Source: Candidatus Omnitrophota bacterium
Lineage (GTDB): Bacteria > Omnitrophota > Omnitrophia > Omnitrophales > JACROU01
Direction of reading: 5' to 3'
Length of the DNA stretch: 64,000 bases
Assembly: GCA_029261035.1 (NCBI GenBank)
Contig: JAJDCD010000004.1
Span: 158,077 to 222,076, forward strand
In this document: positions 2,522 through 64,000 of the stretch, in pieces
Numbering within the stretch: position 1 is the first letter of the stretch
Layout of the letters: each line of letters begins with the position of its first letter
Notes under the pieces: generated by a model
Seen by the model: the letters and a program-made list of their open reading frames with translations, nothing else
Database searches by the model: none
Told to the model about the DNA's origin: nothing
Made by a program: the position numbers and the translations under genes

Positions 2522-3844
2522 TTATTCCTTAAAAGGAAGCTCCCCTAGATTTTCGATCACAAACCCTATTCTCTTAAGAACTTTCTCTTTTCCTAACAAT
2601 TCCATAACCTCAAAAAGCCCCGGACTCACACCCCAACCTGTAATTGCCACTCGTATCGGATGAATCAACGTCGCCGCATTCACCCCTAACGTTTCAGCCG
2701 TTTTCCGAACACACTCCTCTAAACCTTTTTCTGTAAAGTCGCTCAACGCTTCACATGCAGAAAGAACAGAAGTGAGAATGCGACTAACTCCATCTACCTT
2801 TAAATATTTTTCAACAGAACTCTTGTCATACACCAAGGAATCACAAAAACAATAATCAGCTTGAATCAACACATCCTTCCACGTCTTAATGCGTGTCTGA
2901 AAAAGCATAAACACTTTCCTAACATCTTCTTCAGAGCATCTCTCAGGAAAAAGTTTTCTGTTCTTCAAAAAAGACAACCCTTCTTCAGCACAATCTTCTG
3001 GCTTCATCTTTTTTAAATGTTCACTATTAATATAGTTTAACTTTTTTTGATTAAATCCAGCATTCGCTGAATTAACACGTTTTAGAGAAAATTTCTTAAT
3101 CAGAGCTTCTTTAGAAAAAAGCTCTTCATTTCCTCCTGGCCCCCAACCCAACAGAGCCAAATAGTTCAACAAAGCTTCTGGAAGATACCCTTCCTCTTGA
3201 TAAGAGACTAAAGATACGTTGCCATGACGTTTGGATAAAGGAGCTCCGTCATCCCCCACAATCAAAGGAAGATGCGCATACTTAGGGATCTTCCACCCAA
3301 AGGCCTCATACAAAAGAATATGCCTAGGTGTATTCGAAACATGATCTTCTCCTCGAATAACATGAGAAACCTCCATATCATGATCATCGACAACACATGC
3401 AAAATGATATGTTGGAAAACCATCCGACTTTAAAATAACTAAATCATCAAAAAGAGAAGCGTCGAATTCTATTTTCCCTTTAACCACATCCCAGAAGACG
3501 ACTTGTTTATGAGGCATTTTAAATTTTATTGCAGGCGTATCATCAACCTTGTAAGCCACCCCCTCAGCAACAAGCTGCTGAGCTAATTCTTGATAGCGAG
3601 GTAAATGCTCCGTTTGTCGTGAGATGTCCCCATCCCACTCCATACCAATCCACTTCAAACTATTCAAAATCTCATGCGTAAACTCTTCAGCGGAACGCTC
3701 TTGATCCGTATCTTCTATACGAAGAACAAATTGGCCTCCTTGATTTCGGGCGTAGAGATAGTTAAACAAAGCCGTTCGCACACCTCCAATATGAAGATGC
3801 CCAGTGGGTGATGGGGCAAAACGTACTTTAATGTTATTAGACAT
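2522..3844 (-). CDS. gltX: Glutamyl-tRNA synthetase, short form
   Basis: Charges tRNA-Glu with glutamate (or tRNA-Gln in organisms with the indirect route). Class I signatures are clear: APSPTGHLHIGG at 10-21 (HIGH) and LSKRHG at 203-208 (KMSKS-like). At 440 residues it is shorter than the usual 470-490. The loss is local: EGVAY (94-98) runs almost directly into IKFKMP (106-111), whereas typical GluRS has about 40-45 residues here including a Cys-rich, often zinc-binding, segment. The C-terminal anticodon-binding domain is present. It follows the oxidoreductase gene by 29 nt. GluRS versus GluQ-RS: the full C-terminal domain supports GluRS. Confidence 0.93.
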   Translation of the reverse strand: MSNNIKVRFAPSPTGHLHIGGVRTALFNYLYARNQGGQFVLRIEDTDQERSAEEFTHEILNSLKWIGMEWDGDISRQTEHLPRYQELAQQLVAEGVAYKVDDTPAIKFKMPHKQVVFWDVVKGKIEFDASLFDDLVILKSDGFPTYHFACVVDDHDMEVSHVIRGEDHVSNTPRHILLYEAFGWKIPKYAHLPLIVGDDGAPLSKRHGNVSLVSYQEEGYLPEALLNYLALLGWGPGGNEELFSKEALIKKFSLKRVNSANAGFNQKKLNYINSEHLKKMKPEDCAEEGLSFLKNRKLFPERCSEEDVRKVFMLFQTRIKTWKDVLIQADYCFCDSLVYDKSSVEKYLKVDGVSRILTSVLSACEALSDFTEKGLEECVRKTAETLGVNAATLIHPIRVAITGWGVSPGLFEVMELLGKEKVLKRIGFVIENLGELPFKE

Positions 3845-8448: not shown

Positions 8449-8506
8449 TTCCTTTATCTTTAAATAAATTTATATTTATTGCGCGAAGCACCTTATCTAC
8501 CTTATA

Positions 8507-8654
8507 ACAAAATTTGGCTCGATGCCAAACTTTGTTACCCCTCCCCACACAAAAAAATATGTGTACTCCCTAAGGAGGAGGAAGCATTCCTTACCGCCGC
8601 GAGTTGCGCAGGGCAAAGCCCGAGCATGTCTGAGCGCCGGAAAGGAATACTTCC
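8507..8654 (-). repeat. Modular hairpin element, copy 2 (modules C and D)
   Basis: Module C is a 12-bp stem at 8507-8518 and 8524-8535 closing the conserved loop TCGAT. Module D has outer arms GGAAGCATTCCTT (8580-8592) and AAGGAATACTTCC (8642-8654) around the conserved strands CGCCGCGAGTT and TGTCTGAGCGCCGG. Its inner hairpin has a GGGC-AAA-GCCC core quite unlike other copies. In both stems the single imperfect pair would be G-U on minus-strand RNA but A-C on plus-strand RNA, favouring minus-strand transcription. It lies 38 nt after the dxs stop. Modules A and B are not clear here. Confidence 0.85.
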
Positions 8655-8692: not shown

Positions 8693-10579
8693 TTAACTTA
8701 AAGCAGAAAGGTCTTTAGTTTTATCTAAAATAGTTTTGGAGATCTTTTCAGGAGTAAGACCAAACTTATCAAAAATAATCTCACGCTCCCCATGCTGAAT
8801 CACCTCATCCGGCACAGCAATTCGCTGAACATCCACATTCCTCAACTCATTTCTTTCACAAAATTCCAAAACACGCGCCCCTAACCCACCCGAGTACACA
8901 TGATCTTCAATCACCACCCATTTGGTAATAGACTCTGAAAGTTTTTTCAATAAAGTTTCATCTAGTGGCTTAGCAAATCTTAAGTTTACAACCGTCGCTT
9001 GAATCCCTTGTTCTCTTAACAACTCTCTAACCACGAGCGCTCTAGAAACAAAAGACCCTATCGCCAAAATTGCTACATCATTCCCATCTGCAACAATTTC
9101 ACCCTCACCAATCTTAAAGAGGTTCTTTGCTTCCCCTTCAATTTCAGGAACATTTTCTTTAGGATAACGAATTGAAAACACACCTTGATGTTCTAAAGAT
9201 AAACGCATCATCTGATTCATTTCAAAATCAGTCCAAGGACTACAAATCACAGAGTTAGGAATCACTCCTACATAACCAATATCAAACAAACCTTGATGTG
9301 TTGGACCATCAGGACCTACTACTCCAGCTCGATCCAAACAAAAGGTTACATTAACATCTTGTATTGTTACATCGTGAATCAGTTGGTCAAAAGCTCTTTG
9401 AAGAAAAGTAGAATAAATGGCACAAATGGGCTTTATCCCCGATCGGGCTAATGCTCCTGCAAATGAAACAGCATGCTGTTCAGCAATACCAACGTCAAAA
9501 AAACGATCTGGAAATTTATCTTGGAAGGGTCTCAACCCTGTTCCTTCTCTCATCGCTGCCGTAATTGCAACAACCTTAGGATCTTCCTCTGCTAGAAGTG
9601 TCAAATTATTCACAAAACAATTGGTATAACTCAAAGGAGCTGGAGTTACTGTTGCTTTTTTCTTTGGAGCTCCTGATTCCAAATGAAACGGCTGAACTCC
9701 ATGAGAAGTTACAGGGTCTTTCTCTGCAAATTCACACCCTTTCCCCTTCTTAGTAATCAGATGAAGCAAAATAGGTTTTTTAATATCTTTGATATTTTTA
9801 AATAATTTAACCAGCTCTTTAACATCATGGCCATCTACCGGACCAAAATAGCGAAAACCTAATTCCTCAAAAACAATCCCAGGCACTAATAAATTCTTAA
9901 AACCTTCCTCAGCATTCTTAACCAATTTTCTTAACCGAGGAAAATTATTAAGTTGTTCTTCTAATTTTTTTCTAACGCGATTATAAATAGGGGCAGAAAT
10001 AATTCTATTGAGATAAGTGCTAATTGCTCCTACATTTGGAGAAATAGACATTTCATTATCATTGAGAATACAAAGAAAATCTGTTTTGATGTGGCCAGCG
10101 TTGTTTAAAGCTTCATAACAAACACCACCCGTTAACGCTCCATCACCAAAGATAGAAACTATTTTTTCATCTCCACCCTTCAAATCTCGGGCAACCGCAA
10201 GACCTAAACCTTGAGACACTGCTGTGGAGGCGTGTCCAACACTAAAATGATCATGAACACTTTCAGTATGGCTCGTAAAACCACTTAAACCTTCATATGT
10301 ACGAATCGTTTTCATTCGATCCCGCCTGCCCGTAATCAGCTTATGCGCATACACCTGATGACCCACATCCCAGACGAACTTATCTTTCGGAGAATCAAAA
10401 ACATAATGAAGAGCCACAATCAAATCAACCGTACCCAAAGACGCCCCTAAATGCCCCCCTGTTTCAGAGGTTATCTCTACAAGCTCTTCTCTTAAACCAG
10501 CGCACACCTCGGGCAATTGCTCTATCGATAGCTTCTTTAAGTCTTCTGGGCTTTTAATCGTTTCAGACAATCGGGACAT
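8693..10579 (-). CDS. dxs: 1-deoxy-D-xylulose-5-phosphate synthase
   Basis: Condenses pyruvate and glyceraldehyde 3-phosphate to DXP, the first step of the MEP isoprenoid pathway, and feeds thiamine and pyridoxal synthesis. The 628-residue length is normal. Transketolase-fold features include VWDVGHQVYAHKLITGR, the TPP site GDGALTGGVCYEALNNAG, and the C-terminal half with DVGIAEQHAVSFAGALA and DRAGVVGPDGPTHQG. The ispA stop is 7 nt upstream, so the two isoprenoid genes are clearly one unit (xseB-ispA-dxs). A repeat element separates it from nadK. Confidence 0.97.
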   Translation of the reverse strand: MSRLSETIKSPEDLKKLSIEQLPEVCAGLREELVEITSETGGHLGASLGTVDLIVALHYVFDSPKDKFVWDVGHQVYAHKLITGRRDRMKTIRTYEGLSGFTSHTESVHDHFSVGHASTAVSQGLGLAVARDLKGGDEKIVSIFGDGALTGGVCYEALNNAGHIKTDFLCILNDNEMSISPNVGAISTYLNRIISAPIYNRVRKKLEEQLNNFPRLRKLVKNAEEGFKNLLVPGIVFEELGFRYFGPVDGHDVKELVKLFKNIKDIKKPILLHLITKKGKGCEFAEKDPVTSHGVQPFHLESGAPKKKATVTPAPLSYTNCFVNNLTLLAEEDPKVVAITAAMREGTGLRPFQDKFPDRFFDVGIAEQHAVSFAGALARSGIKPICAIYSTFLQRAFDQLIHDVTIQDVNVTFCLDRAGVVGPDGPTHQGLFDIGYVGVIPNSVICSPWTDFEMNQMMRLSLEHQGVFSIRYPKENVPEIEGEAKNLFKIGEGEIVADGNDVAILAIGSFVSRALVVRELLREQGIQATVVNLRFAKPLDETLLKKLSESITKWVVIEDHVYSGGLGARVLEFCERNELRNVDVQRIAVPDEVIQHGEREIIFDKFGLTPEKISKTILDKTKDLSALS

Positions 10580-11767: not shown

Positions 11768-11947
11768 TTTCCGCACATGCGGAAATACCTTCAACCAAAA
11801 TAAATTAGGTGCTCGATGCACCTAATTTATTATCCCTCCACACCCCCTAAAGAAGTAAAGAACCATGGAGTTACCCTCGCCGCGAGTTCACAAAAATCGC
11901 ATTTCAATTTTTGTGCTGTCTGAGCGCCGAGGGTAACTCCATGGTTC
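11768..11947 (-). repeat. Modular hairpin element, copy 3 (modules A, C and D)
   Basis: Module A is TTTCCGCA-CA-TGCGGAAA (11768-11785). Module C is a perfect 13-bp stem (11800-11812 with 11818-11830) closing loop TCGAT. Module D has a perfect 20-bp outer stem (GAACCATGGAGTTACCCTCG at 11860-11879 with 11928-11947), conserved internal-loop strands CCGCGAGTTC and GCTGTCTGAGCG, and an inner stem ACAAAAAT/ATTTTTGT. The outer stem overlaps the xseA stop codon (TGA at 11946-11948). The element occupies almost the whole gap between xseA and xseB although they encode partners of one enzyme. Confidence 0.88.
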
Positions 11948-13241
11948 ACAACAACCTCTTAACCTTCTCAACCCTCTTAACTTCCGACTCCACAACCCCC
12001 TTACCCAACTGCGTCCTAATCATCTCCCCAACCTTCAACTGCCCAGCTTCCCTAACCGGCTTCATCTTCTCATCCACCGTAACACTATACCCTCTAGACA
12101 AAATCCCCAAAGGACTCAAAGCATCCAATTGGGCCAGTAATTTAGAAAATCCCGCTTTCTTTTGCAACAAAACATTACTCAACAAAGGAGTCATCTGAAT
12201 TCGAGACAACTGAATTCTCTTATCCGATACCACACCCAAAAGATAATTCGACATCTGCCTCAAAAGCTCATCCAATCTCTGCCTTGCTTGTTCTACTAAT
12301 CGCTCTGGTTGCGTCAGCGCATAACTCTCTTTCGCATTCGTGATTCTCTCTTTTAAATCTTCTAAAAGATTCTTAACAGCCAAAAGCATTCTTTCTTTAT
12401 TTTCTCTCAACTGCCCCAACAACTCATCTCGACTCGGAACCGCTATCTCAGCCGCTTGAGAAGGAGTCGCCGCTCTCTTATCCGCAACAAAGTCACTGAT
12501 CGTCACATCCACTTCATGGCCCACTGCAGAAATAATTGGAATTTCAGAATTAAAAATAGCACGCGCTACAACTTCTTCATTAAAAGCCCATAAATCTTCT
12601 AAACTTCCTCCTCCACGTCCCACAATCAAAACATCACATAACTTATGCTTATTCATCGACTCAATCGCTTCTACAATTTCTTCTCGAGCACCGTCCCCTT
12701 GCACTTTAACGGGGTATAATAAAATCGGTATCCCAGGGAACCTCCTCTGAGACACATTAATAATATCTCGAATAACAGCCCCTGTTGGAGACGTAATCAC
12801 CCCAATTCTTTCCGGCAAAAATGGGATCTCTTTTTTATATTCTTCTTCAAACAAACCTTCATTCTTCAACTTTTCAATCAGCTGTCTCAAAGCCAGCTCT
12901 AAGGCCCCAACACCTTTCGGCTCTACTCTCTCAACAACAATCTGATAATTCCCACGCTTTTCATAAACAGTCACTTTCCCAAACACCACAACCTGCAACC
13001 CATCTTTCATTTCAAAAGGAATTTTTGCGTTTACGTTTCTAAAAATAACTGCGGAAATTTGAGCTCCTTCATCTTTTAAACTCAAATACATATGTCCAGA
13101 AGAATGGTGTACTAGATTAGATATTTCTCCCTCAATCCAAACAGAACCATACTGAGTTTCGAGAGAACGTCGAATTTGTCGGGTAATATCTGAAATGGAA
13201 TGGATTGTTTTTTGTTGCTCATCTTTTTCTAAATCAAGCAT
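11946..13241 (-). CDS. xseA: Exodeoxyribonuclease VII large subunit
   Basis: Catalytic subunit of Exo VII. The N-terminal OB-fold (about 15-110: SVWIEGEISNLVHHSSGHMY, VVVFGKVTVYEKRGNYQIVV) is followed by the conserved nuclease domain with IGVITSPTGAVIRDI, LIVGRGGGSLEDLWAFN and SAVGHEVDVTISDFVAD, RAATPSQAAE, then a coiled-coil region and a C-terminal GILSRGYSV block. 431 residues is normal. Its 3' end runs into repeat element 3. It starts 27 nt after the YmdB-type gene. Confidence 0.96.
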   Translation of the reverse strand: MLDLEKDEQQKTIHSISDITRQIRRSLETQYGSVWIEGEISNLVHHSSGHMYLSLKDEGAQISAVIFRNVNAKIPFEMKDGLQVVVFGKVTVYEKRGNYQIVVERVEPKGVGALELALRQLIEKLKNEGLFEEEYKKEIPFLPERIGVITSPTGAVIRDIINVSQRRFPGIPILLYPVKVQGDGAREEIVEAIESMNKHKLCDVLIVGRGGGSLEDLWAFNEEVVARAIFNSEIPIISAVGHEVDVTISDFVADKRAATPSQAAEIAVPSRDELLGQLRENKERMLLAVKNLLEDLKERITNAKESYALTQPERLVEQARQRLDELLRQMSNYLLGVVSDKRIQLSRIQMTPLLSNVLLQKKAGFSKLLAQLDALSPLGILSRGYSVTVDEKMKPVREAGQLKVGEMIRTQLGKGVVESEVKRVEKVKRLL

Positions 13242-14794: not shown

Positions 14795-14908
14795 GTCATT
14801 GCGAGGCATTAGAAAGTCGAGCCGTGGCAATCTCAGATTAAGGGAAGAAAGGTCCGTCTCAAAACCAAGAGATTGCCGCAGCTCCTTTGTGGAAGCCTCT
14901 CAATGACT
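14795..14908. repeat. GTCATTGCGAGG...CCGTGGCAATCTC inverted repeat
   Basis: GTCATTGCGAGG (14795-14806) and GAGCCGTGGCAATCTCAG (14819-14836) are mirrored by GAGATTGCCGCAGCTC (14869-14884) and CCTCTCAATGAC (14896-14907). It is a member of a dispersed palindrome family; a better conserved copy is at 17674-17777 and a degraded one at 47835-47882. Confidence 0.7.
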
Positions 14909-14992: not shown

Positions 14993-17227
14993 ATGAGACA
15001 TCTCCTTTTTGTTCTATTATTTTTAGTTATTTCTACCCCTTTTGCTGAGGCCAGCATTATCGGAGCATTAGAGAACGTAACTCGACAAATTGAGTCCGGA
15101 GGTTCATCTAGTAACAACACCTCTTCATCCTCCAGCTCAAGACCTTCTAGCACCACAAATACCAACCCCTCACAATATGAAACTCAATACCCAACACTCA
15201 TGCCTTCAGACGGAAGCAGTGGCTCTGTTATGTCTATCGATCCAACAACAGGCACAGTGACTCAAAGCTCTTTAAATCCTGATGGCTCCAGAACGGTAAC
15301 CGAAACAAACGCGGATGGAAATACAACAGAAGAAGTAATCCCTGAAGATCAACCGGATAGTGCCTCTTCTCTAGATTCCGAAACCGGAATCACAACTACT
15401 TCCGTTGAAAACCCAGATGGGTCTCGTACTGTTATTGAAACGGATGCCGAAGGCAACATCGTAAGTTCAACACGTGTCCCATCAACGCAAACAACATCTG
15501 CCTCTGCTACAGATCCTGACACAGGCATCACAACAACATCTACTCGAAACGCAGACGGATCTAGAACCGTCACACAAACAGACGCGGATGGAAATGTTTT
15601 AAATACGCGGAATGAACCCGCTCGTGGTTCAGGAAGATCTTCTGCTTCTTCTACAAATACAGATACTGGCGTTACAACAACTTCAACTCGCAATGCCGAT
15701 GGCTCTAGCACAGTTACAGAAACAGACTCTCAAGGTAATACCCTCAGTTCGCGCAACGAGCCCGCCCGAGGATCACGCCCAGACTCTGCATCCGCCACCG
15801 ACACCCGTACAGGAAATACAACAACATCCACTCGAAACGCAGATGGCTCTCGCACCGTCACTCAAACAGACTCTCAAGGAAATACTCTTTCAACACGAAC
15901 AGAACCTAATAGAAATTCAACACCTTCTTTTGCATCTTCAACCGATTCTAATACAGGAATTACAACAACTTCGACTCAAAATGCCGATGGCTCTCGTACG
16001 GTCAATCAAACAGACTCTAATGGCAACCTTCTCAATTCTCGAAGAGAACCTGCTCGTGGCTCGAGTCCAAGCTCTGCTTCTTCAACGAACACCGATACAG
16101 GAGTCACTACAACATCGACTCGCAATGCAAACGGCTCCCGTACGGTTACTGAAACGGACGAGCAAGGAAATACATTAAATACTAGGAACGAGCCTGCTCG
16201 TGGTTCCCGTCCAACATCTGCATCTGCCACAGATACAAATACCGGAATCACAACAACGTCCACTCGCAATACAGACGGTTCGCGTACCGTTACCGAAACA
16301 GACGAGCAAGGAAATACCTTAAATACAAGAAACGAGCCTGCTCGTGGTTCCCGCCCTACTTCAGCTTCAGCAACGGATACGAATACAGGCATTACAACAA
16401 CGTCCACACGCAATACGGACGGATCTCGTACCGTTACCGAAACAGACGAGCAAGGAAATACCTTAAGCACCCGAAACGAGCCTGCTCGTGGAACAACCCC
16501 CTCTTCTGCTTCTGCGACAAACCCAGACACAGGAATTACAACAACATCAACACGTAACCCGGATGGTTCTAGAACTGTGACTCAAACGGATAAAGATGGA
16601 AATGTGTTAAATACACGCAACGAACCCGCCAGAGGAACAGGAACATCCTCCGCCTCTTCAACAAATACCGATACAGGTGTCACAACGACATCCACTCAAA
16701 ACGCAGATGGGTCTCGTACGGTTACAGAAACAGATAAAGACGAAAATGTTCTAGGCTCTCGCAACGAACCCGTATCAGGTACAGCCCCCTCTTCGGTAAC
16801 ATCAACAGATATGCTGTCAGGAGCACAAACAACCTCTACTATGAATCCCGATAAAAGCAGAACCCTTATCTTAAAAGACAAAGATGGAAAAGTAATTTCG
16901 AAAGAAACTACATATGGGTCCACAGGAATCGTTTCTAAAGTAACTTATAATAAAGATGGAACAGCTTTATTTATTCAAAAGGATGGAAGAGGTAGAACAC
17001 TGATGGAAAAATCCTTCGCAAAAGTGCTGCAACCTAAATTTAGAAATCAAGCCATTGATATTCTATTTAACGTATCTAGACCGCAGGTGTACTCCTTACC
17101 TGGTTTTGCCAGCGCTCCTGGTTATCCAGCAACTCCAGACAAAACGGTTATCAATAATTCTTTAGGAGAAAAGATACAAGAGTACGAAGGCCCTCCTCGC
17201 GATTATGATGGGTCCAATTACCAGTAG
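14993..17227 (+). CDS. Secreted protein with about twelve 48-residue repeats
   Basis: The 744-residue product starts with a signal peptide (MRHLLFVLLFLVISTPFAEA). After a Ser-rich linker come about twelve tandem repeats of 48 residues (about residues 70-640), each with the frame SASATDxxTGITTTSTRN, xDGSRTVTETDxxGNxL, NTRNEPARGS. The DG-S-R-T-V-T-x-T-D-x-x-G-N pattern recalls YD/RHS beta-hairpin repeats, but Tyr is absent, so this is only resemblance. The C-terminal 100 residues are non-repetitive and end KIQEYEGPPRDYDGSNYQ. No membrane anchor is visible. It is one of the few plus-strand genes and has its own promoter. A surface fibre or adhesin is plausible; function unknown. Confidence 0.85.
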   Translation: MRHLLFVLLFLVISTPFAEASIIGALENVTRQIESGGSSSNNTSSSSSSRPSSTTNTNPSQYETQYPTLMPSDGSSGSVMSIDPTTGTVTQSSLNPDGSRTVTETNADGNTTEEVIPEDQPDSASSLDSETGITTTSVENPDGSRTVIETDAEGNIVSSTRVPSTQTTSASATDPDTGITTTSTRNADGSRTVTQTDADGNVLNTRNEPARGSGRSSASSTNTDTGVTTTSTRNADGSSTVTETDSQGNTLSSRNEPARGSRPDSASATDTRTGNTTTSTRNADGSRTVTQTDSQGNTLSTRTEPNRNSTPSFASSTDSNTGITTTSTQNADGSRTVNQTDSNGNLLNSRREPARGSSPSSASSTNTDTGVTTTSTRNANGSRTVTETDEQGNTLNTRNEPARGSRPTSASATDTNTGITTTSTRNTDGSRTVTETDEQGNTLNTRNEPARGSRPTSASATDTNTGITTTSTRNTDGSRTVTETDEQGNTLSTRNEPARGTTPSSASATNPDTGITTTSTRNPDGSRTVTQTDKDGNVLNTRNEPARGTGTSSASSTNTDTGVTTTSTQNADGSRTVTETDKDENVLGSRNEPVSGTAPSSVTSTDMLSGAQTTSTMNPDKSRTLILKDKDGKVISKETTYGSTGIVSKVTYNKDGTALFIQKDGRGRTLMEKSFAKVLQPKFRNQAIDILFNVSRPQVYSLPGFASAPGYPATPDKTVINNSLGEKIQEYEGPPRDYDGSNYQ
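15210..16925 (+). repeat. 144-bp coding tandem repeats
   Basis: In-frame direct repeats of 144 bp inside the secreted protein gene. The central units (about 16100-16490) are nearly identical at nucleotide level, which shows recent duplication or conversion, while outer units have diverged. Copy number is likely variable between strains. Confidence 0.85.
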
Positions 17228-17265: not shown

Positions 17266-17370
17266 TGTCATCCCCGAATGCTTTAATCGGGGATCCAGTC
17301 AGACAAAACGATTAATTTAGAAATTAAATAAAGCACAAACACATGGATCCCCGCCTTCGCGGGGATGACA
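17266..17370. repeat. TGTCATCCCC...GGGGATGACA palindromic repeat
   Basis: TGTCATCCCCGAATGCTTTA begins and GCGGGGATGACA ends a 105-bp element whose ends are inverted copies, with GGATCC words inside both halves. A relative is at 57888-57984. Confidence 0.7.
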
Positions 17371-17382
17371 GAAAAGCGCGGG

Positions 17383-17439
17383 AAGATACAAGAATAGGAC
17401 GGTCCACCTCGAAATTATGATGGAAAATTTTATGGGTAG
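17383..17439 (+). pseudogene. Decayed copy of the last 18 codons of the repeat-protein gene
   Basis: Read in frame, this stretch gives KIQE, a TAG stop, then DGPPRNYDGKFYG and TAG. The upstream gene ends KIQE-Y-EGPPRDYDGSNYQ, so 13 of 18 positions agree, with a stop where the Tyr codon was. The copy is joined directly to the end of the palindromic repeat at 17266-17370. It looks like the remnant of a second, duplicated gene (or duplicated 3' end) whose body was lost. Confidence 0.75.
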
Positions 17440-17474
17440 ATTTACGCTTGTCATTATTTAATTCAAAGACCCTA

Positions 17475-17498
17475 GATTCCCGCCTACGCGGGAATGAC
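17475..17498. repeat. TTCCCGC-CTA-CGCGGGAA hairpin
   Basis: Short palindrome GATTCCCGCCTACGCGGGAA plus TGAC. Close relatives are at 18967-18990 (GATTCCCGCCTCCGCGGGAA) and 32924-32945 (degraded). Confidence 0.65.
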
Positions 17499-17518
17499 AA
17501 ACACTTTTATTCATTCTT

Positions 17519-17651
17519 GTCATCCTGAACTAGCGCCTGCCCGCCGTCTTGCCCGCCACGAAAAACGGCGGGTCCGCCAGCTTATTAGGAGGATTGGGCG
17601 GGAAGGATCTCAGACTCAGAGATTCTTCGTCGCAAAGCTCCTCAGAATGAC
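17519..17651. repeat. GTCATCCTGA...CTCAGAATGAC element with a nested GC-rich hairpin
   Basis: Outer words GTCATCCTGAACTAGCG and GATTCTTCGTCGC...CTCAGAATGAC belong to the family also at 23742-23810, 34642-34716 and 52035-52130. Inside is a foreign GC-rich palindrome (GCCTGCCCGCCGTCTTGCCC with its partner near ACGGCGGGTCCGCCAG and GGCGGG). This looks like one repeat inserted in another. Confidence 0.65.
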
Positions 17652-17673
17652 AGCTGTGTAGAAATTTAAATCC

Positions 17674-17777
17674 GTCATTGCGAGGCTAAAACAAAAAGAG
17701 CCGTGGCAATTTCAGGTTTTTACTTCTTATTCATCCCGAGATTGCCACGGCTCAATATGTCGATACCTCGCAATGAC
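17674..17777. repeat. GTCATTGCGAGG...CCTCGCAATGAC inverted repeat
   Basis: Well kept copy: GTCATTGCGAGG and GAGCCGTGGCAATTTCAGG on the left, GAGATTGCCACGGCTC and CCTCGCAATGAC on the right. Together with the three repeats before it, this accounts for nearly all of the 580-bp gap between the repeat protein and the lipase gene. Confidence 0.75.
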
Positions 17778-17808
17778 AGTTTTTCTATAAGCTAATGGCT
17801 GACAGCTT

Positions 17809-18952: not shown

Positions 18953-19074
18953 TCACTTGTCTGCCTGGATTCCCGCCTCCGCGGGAATGACCGTATCACC
19001 AAAAGCCAATAGCCAAAAGCTAACGTCTGGCCCGCCAGACAAAGCCAATGACACGCTAGTGCTTTAGCGTAGTC

Positions 19075-32914: not shown

Positions 32915-32948
32915 CAAGCCTGGATTCCCACCTTCACGGGAATGACAA
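32915..32948. repeat. Degraded TTCCCGC hairpin in the gap before the EEP gene
   Basis: GGATTCCCACCTTCACGGGA plus ATGAC, a copy of the family at 17475 and 18967 with one arm changed. The rest of the 281-bp gap 32738-33018 holds the promoter of the next gene and no other feature I can see. Confidence 0.5.
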
Positions 32949-34716: not shown

Positions 34717-34718
34717 GG

Positions 34719-34922
34719 GGGTTATATGCACCAGTCTTTGGTCTGCTGGGTTTTCAGTATTAGCAATTTTAAAGATTTTGGGAATATATGTACCCGTCTT
34801 GGGTCTGCTGGATTTCGAGTATTAGCAATTTTAAAACTTTTGGGAGTATACGCACCCGTCTGGGTCTGCTTGGATGTGTTGTATTAACAATTTTAAAGAT
34901 GTTGATCCCATGGGGATTCGGC
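34719..34922 (+). repeat. Three degenerate 61-62-bp tandem repeats
   Basis: GTCTGCTGG/GTCTGCTTGG words start at 34741, 34803 and 34864. Each is followed by GTATTAGCAATTTTAAA (or GTATTAACAATTTTAAAG) and, in the first two units, by a TATATGTACCCGTCTT or TATACGCACCCGTCT end; a partial unit end precedes the first. No coding potential seen. The remaining gap to 35096 holds GC-rich words (GGGATTCGGCGCCCTCTG, CTCACTCCGGGTCGGCCACT) but no gene I can support. Confidence 0.7.
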
Positions 34923-37288: not shown

Positions 37289-37412
37289 TTCGGTGACTGT
37301 CATTGGCCTGCTTTTAGCAGAGCACAGTGACTGTCACCCAAAACTCATTTTAATCACGGTTCAATAATAGTGACAGTCACTTTGCTCTGCGGTACGCAGG
37401 CAAGTGACAGTC
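37289..37412. repeat. GTGACTGTCAC inverted repeat pair
   Basis: Left part GTGACTGTCATTGGCCTGC, then AGCAGAGCACAGTGACTGTC (with AC), and right part AGTGACAGTCACTTTGCTCT, then GCAGGCAAGTGACAGTCAC, are imperfect inverted copies around an AT-rich middle. The 11-bp word GTGACAGTCAC recurs at 47790-47800 and 49112-49134. It fills the gap between pepA and the membrane protein. Confidence 0.7.
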
Positions 37413-37413
37413 A

Positions 37414-38931
37414 CTATTTCCAATCTTTAAGTAATTGGCACAGAAGACGAACGCCGGCTCCGGTTGCCCCTACAGGAGTGTATGGATTTGGACTGTCGGC
37501 CCATGCAACACCCGCAATATCTAAATGAACCCAAGGATAATCTGCAACAAAATGTTGCAAGAACTTCCCTGCTGTAATCGTTCCCGCTAAACCAGAACTT
37601 ACATTTTGAATGTCACAATATTTACTTTTAATCAGGTCATCATAGTCATCCCACATAGGAAGTTCCCATGTACGCTCACCCGAATCGGTACCTGCTTTAG
37701 TTACCTTAGAACCTAGTTTTGCATTATTAGTCATTAACCCCATGCATTTATCACCAAAAGTGTAAACACACATTCCGGTTAATGTGGCTAGATCAATAAT
37801 TGCGTCCGGCTTAAATTTTTGAGCATAGGCTAAAGCATCCGCCAAAATCAAACGTCCTTCAGCATCCGTATTAATTACTTCGATTGTTTTATTATTGGAA
37901 GCCGTAACAATGTCTCCAGGTCTCTGTGCGTTATGGCCTGGCATATTTTCAACACAAGGGGTTATCCCAATGATATGGATCGGTAAATTCATTTTACTGA
38001 TCGCTTTCATGGTTCCGATTACTGCTGCAGCTCCCATCATATCGAATTTCATTTTTTCCATATCTTTTGAGGGTTTAATCGAAATACCACCGGTATCGAA
38101 CGTAACTCCCTTACCCACTAAACAAATGGTCTTCTTCGCATTTTTGGGTTTCTTCTCAAGCACAATCAGGTTTGGTTTATTGATACTGCCCTGAGCAACA
38201 CCCAAAAGAGCTCCCATTTTCATTTTCTTGAGATCTGCTTCTTTAAAGACTTTGCAAGTAAGACCCTCTTTCTTTGCCATAGCTTGCGCTTCTTTTGCTA
38301 CTTGATCTGGAGTCATCACGTTTGCAGGTTCATTGCCCAGATCTCGAGTAACACACATTGCGTCCGCAACAATAGCTCCATATTCTTTTCCTTTTTCAGA
38401 AAGTTTTTTCTCCCCTGCTTTATCTACAACGTAATCAATCTCTTCTAGAAGAAGTTTTTTGTTCTTAGATTTATCCGAATAATATTTTCCAAACTTATAC
38501 TGAGACAGCACCAAAGATTCTGTAATCGATTGAGCAACCCGTTCTATAGACAACCCTTTTCCAGCAAAACTAGGAAGGTAGATCGCAACTCTTCTTGTTT
38601 TTATTGTTTTAAGCTTTGCAAGTAACCCGGCTACATTTGCCGCCAAACTATGAGCATCCAGTTTCGCTTTACTACCTAAACCTACAAAAAGAATATTGTT
38701 GGTTCGTTTTGCACCCTCTATAAGAGCAAGGTAGCTAGACCCTTTGCTGCCACTAAAGGCATTTTCTTTTTGAATGCGTTTCACAGCTTCTTTTGACGCA
38801 TCACCAAAGCCTTCAACCACACGAGCTAAATTCTTCTCATCTGAAGTACTTCCAACTACGGTTAAGGGATATGGGATATCAATCTCAGATAACGCAACAC
38901 TACGAATATTCATGACAAGCTCCTCATTCAA
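37414..38931 (-). CDS. pepA: Cytosol (leucyl) aminopeptidase, M17
   Basis: 505 residues. Removes N-terminal residues from peptides with two metal ions. The C-terminal catalytic domain holds VGKGVTFDTGGISIKP, MKFDMMGAAAVIGTM and the signature NTDAEGRLILADALAYA (about 360-376). The N-terminal macro-like domain is present (VLVVGLGSK-type FVGLGSKAKLDA). The first Met codons (MNEELVMNIRSVALSE) allow a start at residue 7, where GAGGAGCTTGTC precedes ATGAATATTCG; that start (38913) is likely the true one. Confidence 0.95.
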   Translation of the reverse strand: MNEELVMNIRSVALSEIDIPYPLTVVGSTSDEKNLARVVEGFGDASKEAVKRIQKENAFSGSKGSSYLALIEGAKRTNNILFVGLGSKAKLDAHSLAANVAGLLAKLKTIKTRRVAIYLPSFAGKGLSIERVAQSITESLVLSQYKFGKYYSDKSKNKKLLLEEIDYVVDKAGEKKLSEKGKEYGAIVADAMCVTRDLGNEPANVMTPDQVAKEAQAMAKKEGLTCKVFKEADLKKMKMGALLGVAQGSINKPNLIVLEKKPKNAKKTICLVGKGVTFDTGGISIKPSKDMEKMKFDMMGAAAVIGTMKAISKMNLPIHIIGITPCVENMPGHNAQRPGDIVTASNNKTIEVINTDAEGRLILADALAYAQKFKPDAIIDLATLTGMCVYTFGDKCMGLMTNNAKLGSKVTKAGTDSGERTWELPMWDDYDDLIKSKYCDIQNVSSGLAGTITAGKFLQHFVADYPWVHLDIAGVAWADSPNPYTPVGATGAGVRLLCQLLKDWK

Positions 38932-43013: not shown

Positions 43014-43168
43014 TAAAGCCCCCTCATATTCAACTTTTAATATCTAACCTTTACCACAAGATGTGGATCCGCGATCTCTTTAGCGGATTAATAAATCCTA
43101 AAACAACGCCTCTAAACAGTACTCACCTTTATCCCTGAAGCCTTACAAAACCCTGTAAACAAAAAAGC

Positions 43169-43364
43169 GTTTCGTTATTCAGGTCAATAACGAAACACAT
43201 TATTCCAAAGGTAAAACAAGTGCTCGATGCACTTTTTTTACCAACACTTCACACCCTCATATTACAATATATCAAAGTCTGGAAAGTATTCCTCCGCCGC
43301 GAGTTCACAAAAATCGCTATTCAATTTTTGTGCTGTCTGAGCGCCGGAGGAATACTTTCCAGAC
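43169..43364 (-). repeat. Modular hairpin element, copy 4 (modules B, C and D)
   Basis: Module B: GTTTCGTTATT/AATAACGAAAC (43169-43196). Module C: 14-bp stem with one mismatch (43210-43223 with 43229-43242) closing TCGAT. Module D: perfect 20-bp outer stem (GTCTGGAAAGTATTCCTCCG at 43277-43296 with 43345-43364), internal-loop strands CCGCGAGTTC and GCTGTCTGAGCG, inner stem ACAAAAAT/ATTTTTGT. It ends 27 nt after the stop of the bifunctional-nuclease gene. The rest of the 378-bp gap toward trxB carries only a short GGATTTATTAATCC palindrome. Confidence 0.88.
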
Positions 43365-43391: not shown

Positions 43392-43832
43392 CTACGAATC
43401 CCCTTGAGTAGGAAAGTTCGGCAAATCACCATTTTCAGAAATGGAAGCTTCATTCAACACAACTTCCTCTACAAAAATAGGCACTTCTGCTCTTAATGCC
43501 AATGCAATACTATCTGAAGGCCTTGCATCTACCCATATCTCTTTTTCATCACTATCCAGGATAACAATCTTAGCAAAAAAAGTATTATCTTCTAAATTAT
43601 CAATGATAACGGATTTTAAATTCCCATGAAGCTTCTCGATCAAAGAAAGCAACAAGTCATGCGTTAAGGGTCTGGGTAACTGAATCCCACTGAGTTTCAG
43701 CTTAATTGCATTAACCTCACTAACTCCAATAACAACCGGCAAATACCGAGTTCCCTCTTTTTCCTTTAAAACAATTACTTGTTCACTTCTCTTCTCATCA
43801 ATCTTAATTTTGGATAATTCCATTTCAACCAT
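43392..43832 (-). CDS. Bifunctional nuclease (BFN/DUF151) family protein
   Basis: 146 residues. Family blocks: ILKEKEGTRYLPVVIGVSEV with NAIKLKL, RPLTHDLLLSLIEKL, and VDARPSDSIALALRAEVPIF (the conserved AxPSDAIALA-type motif). Plant and Thermotoga relatives have nuclease activity reported; in bacteria function is little known. Often near membrane or redox genes. It stands alone between repeat element 4 and the coiled-coil gene. Confidence 0.92.
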   Translation of the reverse strand: MVEMELSKIKIDEKRSEQVIVLKEKEGTRYLPVVIGVSEVNAIKLKLSGIQLPRPLTHDLLLSLIEKLHGNLKSVIIDNLEDNTFFAKIVILDSDEKEIWVDARPSDSIALALRAEVPIFVEEVVLNEASISENGDLPNFPTQGDS

Positions 43833-62253: not shown

Positions 62254-62527
62254 ATCGTCACACATGTGACGATACGATTAGATCTAAATCCTAAATCAAT
62301 TCATCTGCTCAACTAAGCTTTTATCCCCGTAATATTTTATAATCACCTAACAACAAACAAGCATTGCGTTATATACACTATAACGAAATACATTAAACCA
62401 AGGCAACAACAAGGGCTCGATGCACTTTTGTTGCCAACCCTCTAAGCCCTCACAAGCATTCGCGAGTTCACAAAAGGGACAGTCCCCGAAGGGGACTGTC
62501 CCTTTTGTGCTGTCTGAGCGCCGGAGA
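62254..62527 (-). repeat. Modular hairpin element, copy 5 (modules A, B, C and partial D)
   Basis: Module A: ATCGTCACA-CA-TGTGACGAT (62254-62273). Module B: CGTTATA/TATAACG (62367-62385). Module C: imperfect stem 62402-62435 with loop TCGAT. Module D: conserved strands CGCGAGTTC and GCTGTCTGAGCGCCGG, inner stem lengthened to 18 perfect bp (ACAAAAGGGACAGTCCCC at 62470-62487 with 62491-62508, loop GAA). The left outer arm of D is lost, so the outer stem cannot form. It fills the 326-bp gap between bioF and the protease; D ends about 30 nt after the bioF stop. Confidence 0.85.
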
Positions 62528-62555
62528 ACTATCCGTGGCCGCCAACAACCTCTAC

Positions 62556-63777: not shown

Positions 63778-64000
63778 ATCGTCACACATGTGACGATACC
63801 CTCTAAATCCTAAACCAACTCTTTTGAGCAATTAACGCCTTTAGCCCTGAAGCAGTATTAAAAACTAAAACAAACAAGCATTTCGTTATTTACATTATAA
63901 CGAAATACATTAAACCAAGAAAACAAAAGCCCTCGATGGCCCTTTTGTTTTCAACCTCTACACACCCCACCAAAGTCCATAACTTAAAAGGCCAGAGAAT
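63778..64000 (-). repeat. Modular hairpin element, copy 6 (modules A, B, C; D expected beyond window)
   Basis: Module A is identical to copy 5 (ATCGTCACA-CA-TGTGACGAT, 63778-63797). Module B: ATTTCGTTAT/ATAACGAAAT around TTTACATT-like loop (63880-63906). Module C: stem 63919-63932 with 63938-63952 closing TCGAT by CC/GG instead of GC/GC, an exchange that keeps pairing. The pyrimidine-rich spacer that precedes module D in other copies follows, and the window ends there. No gene in 63735-64000. Confidence 0.8.

Follow-up and report, generated by a model that had tools for sequence, protein, structure and literature searches.

The gap between xseA and xseB at positions 11768-11947 of the window (the whole stretch of 64,000 nucleotides analysed here) raises the question of whether a hairpin that keeps its pairing while changing its sequence is a selected RNA or the product of a DNA process. 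The first-pass annotation of this DNA had described six intergenic copies of an element with four modules, A to D. These copies are real, except that the one at 63778-64000 (minus strand) shows only A, B and C, as its D lies past the end of the contig, which is reached at window position 64000 (the genome assembly comprises 2.70 Mb in 26 contigs). We are nearly certain that module D represents a real, dispersed hairpin family that was gained by insertion, has a conserved internal loop and runs in gene sense both in this genome and in the majority of Atopobiaceae copies.

Architecture of module D and its copies in the window

Read 5′ to 3′ in gene sense, here the minus strand, D consists of an outer stem, GGCGCUCAGACA, an inner stem, AACUCGCGGC and the returning outer stem, with GGCGCUCAGACA / AACUCGCGGC forming the fixed strands of an internal loop. 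The outer stem spans approximately 15-25 bp, and both outer and inner stems are free in sequence. The constant part comprises UCRRACA in the 5′ strand and RAACUC in the 3′ strand, plus a short GC-rich clamp. Natural variants of the core include GUGCUC[AG][AG]ACA..AACUGCGC and GAACUCGAACA..GAACUCGUUC, fully paired clamps are another, and UCG..CUGC is a second recurrent feature present in many inner stems. Among 47 copies of this genome, identity reached 99.5% in the D core and 46% in the D arms (26% expected by composition), the invariance of the core, including that across phyla, being in part a consequence of the pattern used in the search. No copy with the core in circular permutation (AACTCGC..GCTCAGACA) was present in 1.16 Mb of loci.

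The hairpin modules described in this paragraph all lie on the minus strand. The D hairpin at 2418-2505 has an outer stem of 16-18 bp and the inner stem CACAAAAGTGA, and is found 18 nt past the stop codon of a gltX-like gene (2522-3844). The one at 8580-8654, 38 nt past the stop codon of dxs (8693-10579), has an inner stem of the type UGCUCG..CUGCGCA and is accompanied by a C hairpin with the loop ATCGA (8504-8538). Between xseA and xseB, D (11860-11947) has a 20-bp outer stem, the foot of which overlaps the xseA stop codon (11946-11948), and the gap also holds a C hairpin (11797-11833, loop ATCGA) and an A hairpin (11768-11786, TTTCCGCATGTGCGGAAA). An outer stem of 20 bp is likewise present in the D hairpin at 43277-43364, located 27 nt past the stop codon of a gene with a bifunctional nuclease domain (43392-43832), together with C (43210-43242) and B (43164-43201, TTTCGTTAT/ATAACGAAA). 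The D copy at 62459-62529 is damaged: its outer stem is gone, and what survives is the two strands of the core with a long inner hairpin (62469-62509, GGGACAGTCCC). It is associated with C (62402-62436), B (62360-62390) and A (62255-62274, ATCGTCACATGTGTGACGAT). The earlier statement that D stems of unrelated sequence pair over 13-20 bp therefore holds generally but fails at 62459-62529, where the outer stem is unpaired.

The window contains further repeats. Palindromes like GTGACTGTCAC / GGGACAGTCCC occur both free-standing and within the D loop (37293-37414 and 62469-62509), form inner stems at other loci (L069, L070, L075, L078, L212, L213, L218 and L219), and have closely similar counterparts (GGGGACTGTCCCC) in Olsenella loci that also bear D. 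Other hairpin repeats (GTCATTGCGAGG.., CCCGCCTNCGCGGGAATGAC) were seen at 14795-14839, 17342-17783, 18964-18991 and 32919-32946. A long ORF at 14993-17227 carries approximately eleven 144-nt repeats, a protein matching an elongation-factor domain-2 (1629-2327) includes a stretch of 15-nt lysine-rich repeats, and a 62-nt repeat is present three times in tandem at 34718-34903.

Copy number, pairing and accompanying modules

Allowing up to three mismatches, GCTGTCTGAGCGCCG occurred six times in the window, compared with 0.32 expected occurrences. A covariance model built on 34 copies detected 57 copies genome-wide at E ≤ 1, of which 55 scored approximately 1e-9 or better, so that the repeated hairpin element proposed from the window was confirmed and found to be more numerous than first described. 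In the 34 copies, 93% of cells were paired, as opposed to 65% after shuffling and 41-53% after shifting, and the covariation score was 0.706 vs. 0.187 in shuffles. When 64 copies from several phyla were considered, these values were 95.5% of cells paired and a score of 0.762 vs. 0.155. At least 12 of 15 outer-stem Watson-Crick pairs were found in 49 of 51 core matches in this genome and in none of the 22 matches that arose by chance in viral contigs; core letters alone do not bring the outer stem along. The same 12 of 15 pairs were present in 18 of 19 cases in Eisenbacteria, 16 of 22 in other Omnitrophota, and 111 of 123 in the remaining, mainly Atopobiaceae, loci, the last set still including some coding chance matches. 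Some near-identical copies do sit at contig ends (C16, C19), as chance or an assembly artefact might produce, but these controls (the excess of GCTGTCTGAGCGCCG, the pairing relative to shuffles, the 57 copies and the viral matches) refute such an origin and leave it a negligible probability.

Modules A, B and C were seen in this genome only, where 44 of the 47 copies carry C, 23 carry B and 13 carry A. Across these copies, identity was 88.5% in the B arms, 86% in the C loop and 46% in the C arms. Comparison of the D core and B arms with the D arms indicates that constraint, or copying, kept the core and B alike as the stems diverged. The annotated C hairpin with a fixed TCGAT loop was borne out by the stem it forms and by its constant position behind D, on which grounds module C is real; as a bare word, however, GCTCGATGC was not more frequent in the window than expected by chance with one mismatch allowed. 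With its loop fixed as (A/G)TCGA and its arms 46% identical, C is a second module having free stems like those of D (e.g., 11797-11833).

Position, gain and retention

In this genome, a gene of the same direction precedes 43 of 45 copies, at a median of approximately 20 nt past its stop codon; individual copies start from a few to approximately 40 nt past it. The next gene is codirectional in 34 of the 45 cases and convergent in eight. Considering gene ends within 60 nt, 34 copies have one on the sense side only and none on the antisense side only. The locations behind stop codons and the common direction relative to genes were thus borne out, the gene-following orientation being the minus strand of the window. 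The corresponding figures in Atopobiaceae were 50 vs. 9, with a median distance of approximately 11 nt past the stop codon, and D was mostly located 5-25 nt past the stop codon in a second set consisting mainly of Atopobiaceae. Judged by ORF position, many Eisenbacteria copies also lie behind stop codons, although a simple ORF count there gave no clear bias towards the sense side (6 vs. 5). The genes ahead of D are ordinary ones: in the window gltX, dxs, xseA and the gene with a bifunctional nuclease domain, and in Olsenella what we take, from the sequences, to be nrdD and genes for ispG- and argJ-like proteins. No shared neighbour gene able to mobilise D was found among these housekeeping neighbours.

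The xseA-xseB gap of this genome measures 229 nt and holds D, C and A. In most of 26 relatives the two genes overlap, abut or are separated by at most approximately 20 nt, and in a genome of the same family (G001) they overlap by 16 nt, which indicates that the D-C-A unit was inserted. Moreover, the 57 copies found here, compared with none or one in two genomes of the same family, indicate amplification. Insertion and amplification give no support to the earlier view that the element was not of a copy-and-paste kind. The xseA-xseB gap of some relatives (L288, L307, L310) contains other hairpin repeats, similar to those seen in the window (GTCATTGCGAGG.., CCCGCCTNCGCGGGAATGAC).

The 3′ flank of nrdD in Atopobiaceae provided a view of the element at a single site. 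A D-type hairpin was present in nine of 18 readable species, with outer stems that were mostly unrelated, so the element can be retained at a site even though its stems are exchanged. The other flanks had a plain hairpin with or without a T tract, another long hairpin, or none, and one (L264) was ambiguous; D shares this site with terminators and other hairpins.

Distribution across genomes

The same core as in this genome occurs in Atopobiaceae and Eisenbacteria, bringing its distribution to three phyla including Omnitrophota. A scan of genome contigs returned at least 107 stretches, including a few coding chance matches, mostly from Olsenella, Thermophilibacter and other Atopobiaceae, followed by Omnitrophota and Eisenbacteria. 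Using a broader model, matches were obtained in 15 of 384 genomes of the element's own phylum and 11 of 396 genomes from the Olsenella phylum, both under strict filters, and in seven of 20 of the Eisenbacteria phylum. The covariance-model matches in one genome (G254, L240-L248) are doubtful and were left out, being near-identical repeats without the usual outer stem. No copy of D was found in the viral contigs, phages and plasmids searched; 26 viral pattern matches considered as carriers were rejected, as their stems are missing and they look like coding chance. Olsenella-type genomes also contain many other long perfect hairpins (arms of 30-52 bp) without the D core, such as those at L097 632-741 and L131 6024-6131, and further ones occur at L146 7806-7892 and in L278.

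At the gathering score, Rfam contained no family matching the window, 14 further loci or a single Olsenella copy, the last giving sub-threshold matches only, mainly to miRNA hairpins. This agrees with the annotation of the element as not belonging to a known family, and the papers that matched the core strings were, to judge by their titles, unrelated.

A REP-like transposase had been suggested to act on the element, and a search for Y1 genes gave no support for this. This genome has four Y1 genes, none with a D copy within approximately 1.5 kb, no D copy was present at the 24 Y1 loci examined, and Y1 is absent from seven of 18 element-bearing genomes. A Y1/RAYT transposase as the mover of D was rejected for this lack of linkage.

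RNA selection or a DNA process

Selection on a sense RNA would predict G.U as the commonest intermediate between paired states. In D stems (positions 1-14 without position 5) we counted 28 G.U and 31 A.C mismatches, and a second count of all groups with position 5 included gave 37 and 87, respectively. Module C stems had three G.U and nine A.C mismatches. At stem position 5 from the core, the Atopobiaceae copies had 29 A.C (or C.A) and no G.U, a pattern compatible with wobble on the antisense strand only. A tRNA control gave 21 G.U vs. 0, but is biased because the program brackets only pairs that it accepts. The claim that the stems show the covariation expected of a selected structure is therefore not supported in that form: the stems do covary, but their mismatches have no G.U preference, and covariation alone is not proof of selection on RNA.

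Template switching during replication can re-establish a paired stem in a single event (Monttinen and Loytynoja, 2022, PMC8794818), and it could both keep D stems paired and give the observed balance of G.U and A.C. However, it would erase the internal loop, and yet the loop is kept, which suggests that it is the loop, and not the paired stems, that speaks for selection.

Inverted pairs of D occur in Olsenella (L092, L096, L109, L118, L134, L146, L169, L177, L178, L180). Their 3′ ends always face each other, and the gaps between them cluster near 19-20 or 39-42 nt, a spacing suggestive of helical turns. Most are located between codirectional genes, where the second member is antisense and is left unexplained by a pure RNA reading.

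Possible roles of the element

We tentatively favour the interpretation that D is an undescribed REP-like interspersed hairpin repeat that may act in the mRNA of the preceding gene. D would be transcribed together with the gene ahead and would form a 3′-end or intercistronic hairpin in that mRNA, where it may block 3′ exonucleases, set a processing point or slow the ribosome at the stop codon in the manner of REPs. The fixed loop could be bound by a factor or mark the cut, whereas the stems would need pairing only, which replication template switching may help to maintain. In this genome, the unit has been enlarged by hairpins C, B and A. This interpretation is favoured by the location and orientation of D relative to genes, its gain between xseA and xseB, its retention at nrdD, the pairing of its stems, its near-invariant core and the niche it has in common with terminators and REPs. 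The stems without G.U preference, the A.C mismatches at position 5 in Atopobiaceae, the antisense members of inverted pairs and the indistinct sense bias in Eisenbacteria speak against it.

Alternatively, D may be a selfish palindromic repeat of the MITE or REP type that acts as DNA only, its folded single strand being recognised by a hypothetical strand-specific enzyme; we consider this rather unlikely. The insertion between xseA and xseB, the lineage-specific amplification with a patchy distribution, the stems without G.U preference and the inverted pairs with set spacing are all consistent with it, and location behind stop codons could simply be where insertions do least harm. Harm avoidance does not, however, explain the 43:2 orientation, there is neither a linked Y1 gene nor a recurrent neighbour gene, and D was retained at nrdD in nine species. 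An unusual form of transcription terminator is improbable. Behind nrdD, D does occupy the site at which other Atopobiaceae have plain T-tract hairpins, and T makes up 47% of the 8 nt past the stem in this genome, compared with 22%; elsewhere, however, the values are 23% and 18%, five or more T were found in only four of 109 copies, and codirectional genes flank 34 of the 45 copies in this genome, among them the copy between xseA and xseB.

It is similarly improbable that the UCRRACA / RAACUC loop is a new self-standing RNA module, serving either as a small ribozyme or as the binding site of its own dedicated factor. If this were true, the loop would define mRNA 3′ ends behind stop codons, would have moved between three phyla and would need only pairing of its stems. 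That D as a whole is a free-standing functional 3′ UTR RNA defined by this loop, such as a self-cleaving ribozyme or a dedicated protein site, is quite doubtful. In its favour is a single internal loop with approximately 14-20 fixed nucleotides, enclosed by two sequence-free helices and found in three phyla; the stems without G.U preference and the lack of a match to known ribozyme families argue against it.

D is a hairpin repeat that is constant only in its internal loop, has no Rfam entry and is found in three phyla that are unrelated to one another. Its many copies serve as natural replicates in which one loop is combined with unrelated stems, making the function of the loop separable from stem sequence. 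It also provides a warning: the covariation here is very strong, yet the stems do not show the bias towards G.U of an RNA under selection, so that a covariation test used by itself might mistake palindromes maintained by template switching for selected structures.

Comparison with known systems

Like intrinsic terminators, D is located behind stop codons and has a stem of free sequence; unlike them, it has a fixed internal loop, sits within operons and shows little sign of a T tract outside this genome. Integron attC sites are defined by the core sites RYYYAAC / GTTRRRY and an associated integrase. D resembles them in keeping its structure while its sequence is free, in lying directly behind an ORF and in its fixed orientation, but its conserved part is mid-stem rather than at the foot, and its copies are scattered behind housekeeping genes rather than forming cassette arrays. 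Reading by eye, we saw no attC core sites at the feet of D stems. Template-switch hairpins (PMC8794818) would account for the compensated stems of D without repeated selection, but they reflect a mutation process rather than an element and leave its preserved internal loop unexplained.

The closest comparison is with REPs in the wide sense, as D copies are hairpins dispersed among intergenic sites, a short way past the end of the preceding ORF. REPs mostly lie less than 20 bp behind ORFs, in both codirectional and convergent gaps, often as inverted dimers; they possibly act in mRNA, and the stop codon may be provided by one end of a REP (Di Nocera, 2013, PMC3733652). Ribosomes are reported (in PMC12306157) to stall at REPs located within 15 nt of a stop codon. 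REP stems measure 5-13 bp and are grouped by sequence into named families, GTAG- and CGTC-tagged REPs, BIMEs and REPINs having been described (PMC3733652; Bertels and Rainey, PMC3116915), whereas D stems measure approximately 15-25 bp, are free in sequence and flank a single fixed internal loop, and D pairs have their 3′ ends facing. In contrast to GTAG REPs, the feet of D stems have no GTAG consensus and no RAYT/Y1 gene is flanked by D. CGTC REPs have a CGTC tag, an 8-9 bp stem, a 4-5 nt loop and a CCA tail; D differs in stem and loop, and CGTC was found in only 19 of 109 and six of 42 D copies. We classify D as REP-like rather than as a REP: the niche is common to both, while the tags, the stem size and the association with RAYT are not.
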